The notes under the pieces were generated by a model. It had not been told where the DNA came from. It did no database searches and saw nothing but the letters and a program-made list of their open reading frames with translations. From positions 744,001 through 808,000 of the forward strand of contig NZ_CP101731.1 of the NCBI RefSeq assembly GCF_031202305.1: a stretch of DNA of 64,000 bases, written 5' to 3'. Below are positions 15,243 through 16,274 of this stretch, piece by piece; position 1 is the stretch's first letter; every line of letters begins with the position of its first letter. Source of the stretch: Pelagibacterium sp. 26DY04. GTDB lineage: Bacteria > Pseudomonadota > Alphaproteobacteria > Rhizobiales > Devosiaceae. Made by a program: the position numbers and the translations under genes.

Positions 15243-16274
15243 ATGCGCTCGGTCAAAACCATCCACATCGTAGGCTGCCACGCGGAAGGCGAGGTCGGCG
15301 ACGTGATCGTGGGCGGCGTCGCGCCCCCGCCGGGCGAAACCCTATGGGAACAATCGCGCTGGATCGCCCGCGACCGGACCTTGCGCAATTTCGTCCTCAA
15401 CGAGCCGCGTGGCGGCGTCTTCCGCCACATCAACCTGCTCGTGCCTCCCAAAAACCCGCGCGCCCAGATGGGCTGGATCATCATGGAGCCCGAGGACACC
15501 CCGCCCATGAGCGGGTCGAACTCCATCTGCGTAGCCACCGTGCTGCTCGATACCGGCATCATCGAGATGACTGAACCGGAAACCCGCATGGTCCTCGAAG
15601 CGCCGGGCGGCCTTGTCGAGGTCGTCGCCCAATGCGCCAACGGCAAGGCCGAAAAGATCACGGTCCACAATGTTCCGAGCTTCGTCGACCGGCTCGACGC
15701 CCAGATCGAAGTGGAGGGCATCGGCACCCTCACCGTCGACACCGCCTATGGCGGCGACAGCTTCGTGATCGTCGATGCCCGGGCGCTCGGCTTTGCCCTC
15801 ACCCCCGACGAAGCGCGCGAGATTTCAGCTCTGGGCGTAAAGATCACGCGCGCCGCCAATGAGCAGCTCGGTTTCACCCACCCCGAAAATCCCGACTGGA
15901 GCCACATCTCCTTCTGCCAGATCGCTGGGCCGCTGGGCGCCGAGGGGGGCGCGATGAGCGGCAAGAGCGCCGTAGTCATCCAGCCTGGCAAGATCGACCG
16001 GTCCCCCACCGGCACTGGCTGCTCGGCCCGCATGGCGGTGCTGAAGGCTCGTGGCCAATTGGGGGTAGGGGACCGCTTCATCGGCCGTTCGATCATCGAT
16101 TCACGCTTTGTTTGCCGCATCGAGCGCGACACTATGGTCGGGGACAAGCCCGCCATCATCCCCTCGATTACCGGCCGCGCCTGGGTTACAGGAACGCGCC
16201 AGGAAATGCTCGACCCCGCCGATCCCTGGCCGGGCGGTTACAAGATCGCCGACACCTGGCCCAACAAGCTTTAG
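15243..16274 (+). CDS. Proline racemase-family protein with Ser/Thr active-site pair
   Basis: A racemase-fold paralogue of its neighbour, 343 residues, but with both catalytic cysteines replaced. The first position is Ser90 in PPMSGSNSIC (where racemases have MCGH) and the second is Thr256 in DRSPTGTGCSARM. A Thr at the second site characterises trans-3-hydroxy-L-proline dehydratases, whose first residue is normally Cys. Without two cysteines it should not racemise by the two-base Cys mechanism; dehydration or a divergent reaction on a hydroxyproline is the best guess. It abuts the epimerase gene without a gap and must be cotranscribed. Confidence 0.8.
   Translation: MRSVKTIHIVGCHAEGEVGDVIVGGVAPPPGETLWEQSRWIARDRTLRNFVLNEPRGGVFRHINLLVPPKNPRAQMGWIIMEPEDTPPMSGSNSICVATVLLDTGIIEMTEPETRMVLEAPGGLVEVVAQCANGKAEKITVHNVPSFVDRLDAQIEVEGIGTLTVDTAYGGDSFVIVDARALGFALTPDEAREISALGVKITRAANEQLGFTHPENPDWSHISFCQIAGPLGAEGGAMSGKSAVVIQPGKIDRSPTGTGCSARMAVLKARGQLGVGDRFIGRSIIDSRFVCRIERDTMVGDKPAIIPSITGRAWVTGTRQEMLDPADPWPGGYKIADTWPNKL

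Follow-up and report, generated by a model that had tools for sequence, protein, structure and literature searches.

Among the closest described relatives of the gene considered here is B9K4G4, a member of cluster 3 of the proline racemase superfamily, which was reported with a crystal structure as a trans-3-hydroxy-L-proline dehydratase (t3HypD) carrying the residue pair Ser90/Thr256 (eLife 2014, PMC4113996). A legend in that paper names the nuclear magnetic resonance spectrum of B9K4G4 dehydrating trans-3-hydroxyproline, and the structure makes Ser90 the catalyst, held in place by Asn93, with Thr256 in a non-catalytic orientation. The paper contradicts itself on these residues, since one paragraph gives Ser93/Cys255 for B9K4G4, whereas the Figure 5 legend and a later section give Ser90/Thr256; we follow the latter version because the chain of the B9K4G4 structure itself (PDB 4K7G) has Ser and Thr at these sites. 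Watanabe et al. (PLoS One 2015, PMC4364671) list the Ser-Cys and Ser-Thr types as being of unknown function in their introduction, and their discussion speaks of Ser-Thr proteins annotated as trans-3-hydroxy-L-proline dehydratase (their T3LHypD) and names them "Type II." Here, we analyze a stretch of 64,000 nucleotides from Pelagibacterium sp. 26DY04 (contig NZ_CP101731.1, positions 744,001 to 808,000), called the window below, in which the gene at 15243..16274 very probably encodes, to judge from its sequence, a Ser/Thr trans-3-hydroxy-L-proline dehydratase. Sequence, residue pair, homology, and neighborhood are shown here directly, and for a close relative the activity and active-site geometry are published; what this protein does, its part in the physiology of the host, and which host protein is the reductase are inferred. 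The gene and its key codons are as follows.

15243..16274, plus strand: Ser/Thr proline-racemase-superfamily gene (open reading frame and translation; NF047722 score; identity to 4K7G)
15510..15512, plus strand: codon for Ser90, proposed as general base and matching the catalytic Ser90 of B9K4G4 (eLife 2014, PMC4113996)
15519..15521, plus strand: codon of Asn93, whose counterpart positions the catalytic Ser in B9K4G4 (eLife 2014, Figure 5 legend)
16008..16010, plus strand: codon of Thr256, on the opposite face, whose counterpart in B9K4G4 is non-catalytic in orientation (eLife 2014)

The open reading frame runs from ATG to TAG without internal stops and encodes 343 amino acids. Numbered from the ATG, Ser90 lies in PPMSGSNSIC and Thr256 in DRSPTGTGC. 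This is the pair that the initial annotation had read from the letters, and both the translation and the phmmer alignments to 4K7G, 4K8L, and 1TM0 confirm it; the idea of a misaligned first site was rejected, since these alignments are free of gaps across both motifs. 4K7G, a crystal structure with inhibitor, is 73% identical to the window protein (247 of 340 positions, no gaps, PMSGSN and DRSPTGTG included). At 18 active-site and nearby positions the two proteins agree in 17, the remaining one being position 12, which is Cys here and Val in 4K7G. B9K4G4 thus resembles the window protein in Ser90, Asn93, and Thr256, and what separates them is ordinary divergence. Among 17 matches in the PDB, 4k8l (from Ochrobactrum anthropi, the first match), 4k7g, and 1tm0 (the third) score 563–577 bits and the next 278; all three read MSGSNS and RSPTGTG, which is the Ser/Thr pair. 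The initial annotation knew of no characterized Ser/Thr enzyme, and in this it was mistaken: B9K4G4 had been purified, crystallized, and published in 2014 (eLife, PMC4113996). Close homology to such an enzyme, which that annotation had named as a finding that would refute its idea, is what the comparison with 4K7G gives. Its suggestion of a dehydration probably holds.

The window protein scores 651.9 bits (cut-off 550) with NF047722, the NCBIfam model for t3HypD, and the five other NCBIfam family models that the protein matches all stay under their own cut-offs. NF047722 is passed as well by two Ser/Cys relatives, P0060 from Pelagibius sp. Alg239-R121 and P0117 (679.6 bits for the latter), and therefore the model alone leaves residue 256 unfixed. 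The residues themselves are those of T3LHypD Type II, namely Ser90 with Asn93 three residues on, and Thr256. As far as the discussion of the 2015 paper describes that type, residue pair and annotated function are shared, and we found no separating feature. The Ser90/Thr256 pair departs from the two catalytic cysteines of the Cys/Cys racemases and 4-hydroxyproline epimerases, and the corresponding scores are 214.1 bits for NF010578 (cut-off 376) and 244.9 for NF010576 (cut-off 556). Ser90 likewise departs from Type I (Cys/Thr) T3LHypD; NF045511, which we take to be the model of the Cys/Thr type, gives 217.9 bits against 540. Type I, including the human enzyme (Cys104/Thr273), carries out the same reaction with a second-site Thr, but differs in its first-site Cys, in other ligand-binding residues (PLoS One 2015, PMC4364671), and in that 7QPO reaches only 121 bits against the window protein. 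Finally, the Ser/Cys 4-hydroxyproline epimerase of cluster 9 (4LB0, from A. vitis) shares the first-site serine with the Asn motif, but it has Cys where the window protein has Thr256, it is active as a 4-hydroxyproline 2-epimerase (4HypE; eLife 2014), and it scores 278 bits vs 574 for 4K7G.

These assignments bear on whether the protein might catalyze a novel reaction with a different (hydroxy)proline isomer. The published assays that we found concern relatives, none of them this exact protein. Nevertheless, a new reaction is very improbable, given that the protein falls inside a curated t3HypD model, that an assayed t3HypD has exactly its active-site motifs, and that for cis-3-hydroxy-L-proline another dehydratase, aconitase X, is already known (Sci Rep 2016, PMC5144071). 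The new step that the initial annotation had allowed for finds no support, the Ser-Thr type being already T3LHypD Type II in the discussion of PMC4364671. Overall, the protein appears to be an ordinary member of a characterized Ser/Thr dehydratase type that is already known.

Conservation tells the same two sites apart from errors and from decay. A search of genome contigs confirmed 577 relatives, and in the best 80 of them Ser90 is Ser and Asn93 is Asn in 80/80; none of the 80 varies at Asp252, Arg253, Pro255, or Gly257-Thr258-Gly259. Position 256 is Thr in 64/80 and Cys in 16/80. Sequencing error at Ser90 or Thr256 is ruled out because these residues recur in so many relatives. The loss of both cysteines of the classical pair could suggest an inactive paralogue, a reading that we consider scarcely credible: decay is not expected to leave active-site residues invariant in every relative kept, and the Ser/Thr relative B9K4G4 is active (eLife 2014, PMC4113996). 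The minus strand of 15243-16274 holds mechanical open reading frames of 167, 108, and 137 amino acids, and one translated minus frame has three stops. The nearest protein among 120 listed, P0002 of Pelagibacterium sp. H642, is 96% identical to the window protein. A quick tree places the window gene with locus L175 of genome G038 (well supported) and with locus L174 of the same-genus genome G130 (support 92, under the starred level), and ten other same-genus genomes form a separate starred clade apart from it. From this placement, a replacement or transfer of the window gene is possible.

If the dehydratase works as published for B9K4G4, Ser90 would act as general base and take the alpha proton at C-alpha, and its conjugate acid would then aid the loss of the 3-hydroxyl (after eLife 2014). 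The enamine product would tautomerize to delta-1-pyrroline-2-carboxylate, which a reductase would convert to L-proline. Thr256, on the other face, would be no catalyst, and therefore the planar intermediate would mostly not be reprotonated from that side. The residues concerned are present in the window protein as Ser90, Ser92 (in place of His), Asn93, Asp252, and Thr256; on our reading of the motif, Asp252 probably corresponds to the Asp232 of the eLife 2014 legend. The neighboring Cys/Cys enzyme would handle trans-4-hydroxy-L-proline, so that the gene run would serve both hydroxyprolines.

The neighborhood supports the hydroxyproline context proposed by the initial annotation, including the Cys90/Cys253 pair of the adjoining epimerase, which we confirm. 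Its genes are these.

7017..7955, minus strand: DHDPS-family protein, presumed pyrroline-4-hydroxy-2-carboxylate deaminase, a role suggested by context (PF00701 over cut-off; NCBIfam dapA-like match under cut-off)
8322..12913, plus strand: branched-chain-amino-acid-type ABC transporter with binding protein, two permeases, and two ATPases (first two genes by NCBIfam matches under cut-off, three by eye from translations)
12945..14240, plus strand: FAD-dependent protein resembling D-amino acid oxidases/dehydrogenases and presumed to be the cis-4-hydroxy-D-proline oxidase (188.9 bits with the NCBIfam D-amino acid dehydrogenase subfamily, under the cut-off of 383)
14241..15242, plus strand: 4-hydroxyproline 2-epimerase, Cys90/Cys253 (NF010578, 603.5 bits vs cut-off 376)
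16283..16948, plus strand: GntR-family regulator that closes the run (NCBIfam GntR-type matches, all under cut-off)

The three enzyme genes spanning 12945-16274 follow one another with zero bases between each stop and the next start, and the DHDPS-family gene is divergent from the cluster. The role presumed for 12945..14240 follows the pathway of eLife 2014 (PMC4113996), and the transporter is presumed, from context, to be a hydroxyproline importer. Together these genes make up the trans-4-hydroxyproline set known from print, short of its final aldehyde dehydrogenase (no search aimed at it was made), with the Ser/Thr enzyme in addition. In several species, 4HypE and t3HypD are encoded close together and both hydroxyprolines are used (eLife 2014, PMC4113996), and the layout seen here is that arrangement. 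The layout would also fit the cotranscription of 15243..16274 with its neighbors that the initial annotation had asserted, with a start at 15243 directly after the epimerase stop and the GntR-type gene beginning at 16283. A promoter and terminator scan gave nothing beyond chance. The host genome is a single contig of 3,887,506 bases, and the PF05544 proteins found in it by genome search are the Ser/Thr protein and the adjoining epimerase only.

Two further clusters flank this run. The stretch 164-6590 reads as haem uptake (ABC ATPase, permease, binding protein, HemS-like protein, and TonB-dependent receptor, by eye from translations). On the other side, 16954-22401 holds a second GntR-type gene on the minus strand, followed by tripartite tricarboxylate transporter-like, short-chain dehydrogenase/reductase (SDR) oxidoreductase-like, and RraA/aldolase-like genes. 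This second cluster is separate from the hydroxyproline run; its model matches are under cut-offs, and its transporter was recognized by eye.

Proline ketimine reductases have been found in the Ldh_2 (MLD2) family (eLife 2014, PMC4113996). All Ldh_2 and OCD matches of the host genome lie outside the window, and none adjoins 15243..16274. Two of the three Ldh_2 proteins of this genome form the candidate pair.

Contig 322158-323165 and contig 854933-855940: Ldh_2 genes L004 and L005, 96% identical over 336 amino acids, either of which may be the reductase

Neither gene lies near the other or near the hydroxyproline cluster. L004 is 59–67% identical to the Ldh_2 genes that adjoin the Ser/Thr gene in five other loci, L013, L019, L031, L041, and L065; these belong to Devosia nitrariae, Pelagibacterium luteolum (L031), Shinella, Rhizobium CF080, and Endobacterium. 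In the 11 same-genus loci fetched, an Ldh_2 match lies within 2 kb in nine, seven of them at ≥67% identity. Among the 136 genomes that represent the host's family, 71 have some match to the window protein and 52 a Ser-type protein at ≥68% identity, two of these copies being broken or split (G082 and G007); a twelfth same-genus genome, G122, gave no match to the Ser/Thr protein in this search. An Ldh_2 protein at ≥53% identity to L005 occurs, among the matches listed, in 26/136 genomes, and all 26 have the Ser-type protein at ≥68%, as do 26 of the other 110 (Fisher p 8.7e-14, uncorrected for kinship, with both sets read by eye). A reductase for the pathway is thus probably present elsewhere in the host genome, in the two copies L004 and L005. 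The company of Ldh_2 and Ser/Thr genes in relatives also speaks for the dehydratase reading. An OCD-family reductase was rejected, for the only PF02423 match over cut-off is EutC (563.8 bits, cut-off 471.65), which sits beside EutB (over cut-off) and a DoeA/EutD-like gene that falls narrowly short of its cut-off (611.7 bits vs 613); a second OCD match is under the family cut-off. These ectoine utilization genes, eutB, eutC, and doeA/eutD-like (L006), lie ∼123 kb upstream of the window.

Several observations weigh against a dehydratase assignment. The candidate reductases L004 and L005 are unlinked to the hydroxyproline cluster. Two genomes of the same genus, G130 (locus L174) and G123 (locus L179), lack an Ldh_2 match beside the gene, and G130 is without any Ldh_2 among the matches listed. 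Taken as a whole, the neighborhood is one for trans-4-hydroxyproline use. Finally, homology leaves the main activity unsettled, because the members of cluster 3 differ in function and some are promiscuous between 4HypE and t3HypD, and because its member D0B556 epimerized 3-hydroxyproline (eLife 2014, PMC4113996). For this last reason we keep a small share of belief for a protein whose main activity is that of a hydroxyproline 2-epimerase, or which is both dehydratase and epimerase, as some cluster members are. Such an enzyme is nonetheless unlikely here. Thr256 replaces the second proton donor/acceptor, and its counterpart in B9K4G4 is turned in a non-catalytic orientation, an argument that would weaken if residue 256 of D0B556 were Thr, as it could be. 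The P. aeruginosa relative P0117 has Cys at position 256, unlike the window protein. A second 4-epimerase would also be redundant, because the gene directly upstream already encodes a dedicated Cys/Cys 4HypE.

The comparison with P. aeruginosa leads to the variation at position 256. LhpL, the product of PA1255 in P. aeruginosa, is a bifunctional dehydratase and 2-epimerase according to Sci Rep 2016 (PMC5144071). It probably belongs to the same subfamily as the window protein, since P0117, which may be the PA1255 product, passes NF047722. Beyond the best 80 relatives, position 256 is Thr in 110 and Cys in 10 of the 120 proteins listed out of 8,000 scored (query included), and Thr in 29 and Cys in one of 30 family loci (the window's own included). 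A wider set of 121 rows comprises the loci of those 80 relatives, the window, and 40 regions, the last taken from 24 of 51 other family genomes with a Ser-type gene and from 16 of 29 other class-level places (28/385 genomes of the class matched at 1e-100; 13 places at ≤56% identity were left out). At least two genomes are present twice (L013/L189 and L031/L181, both Ser/Thr). The rows are 62–100% identical to the window protein and divide into 94 Ser/Thr and 27 Ser/Cys. On the quick tree, at least eight changes occur at position 256, at least three of them forced by well-supported branches, and nine are counted when the column itself is left out. Position 256 thus appears to have switched between Thr and Cys repeatedly within the subfamily while Ser90 stayed. 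Four loci of the host's family (L170, L171, L172, and L173) each encode two Ser/Cys proline-racemase proteins that differ from one another, the second being 44% identical to the window protein; these pairs are the Ser/Cys counterpart of the pair seen at the window locus.

Gene context does not follow this residue uniformly. An Ldh_2 match is found in 40/94 Ser/Thr vs 13/27 Ser/Cys loci, with flanks of unequal length. In Pseudomonadaceae, where both types are present and the Cys/Cys enzyme of the loci is distant, a Cys/Cys paralogue occurs in 11/13 Ser/Cys and 23/35 Ser/Thr loci, and an Ldh_2 match anywhere in the locus in 11/13 vs 18/35. Outside Pseudomonadaceae, an Ldh_2 or OCD match lies within 2.5 kb in 25/59 Ser/Thr vs 1/14 Ser/Cys loci, and a Cys/Cys paralogue in 28/59 vs 1/14. 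An independent-pairs test gave a median p of 1, with only five pairs on well-supported branches, too few for significance whatever the truth. Thr256 is therefore not established as a marker of dehydratase-pathway loci, and the trend outside Pseudomonadaceae could be mere kinship. The bifunctionality described for LhpL, together with Cys256 of P0117, might suggest that Cys256 adds epimerization. Tentatively, position 256 may work as a natural toggle, Thr (Ser/Thr) giving a pure dehydratase and Cys (Ser/Cys) one that epimerizes as well, an idea to which we give somewhat less than even credence.

As a discovery, the window gene matters little: it adds one more genome to a characterized enzyme type. 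It does correct the belief that Ser/Thr proline-racemase proteins are uncharacterized, and it fits the published picture of a single gene run for both trans-4- and trans-3-hydroxyproline. If true, the toggle at position 256 would explain the heterogeneity of cluster 3 (eLife 2014) and would offer a clean natural experiment on the role of the second catalytic residue, with no new enzyme class. The Thr and Cys orthologues could then let the weighing of dehydration against epimerization by one residue be tested.
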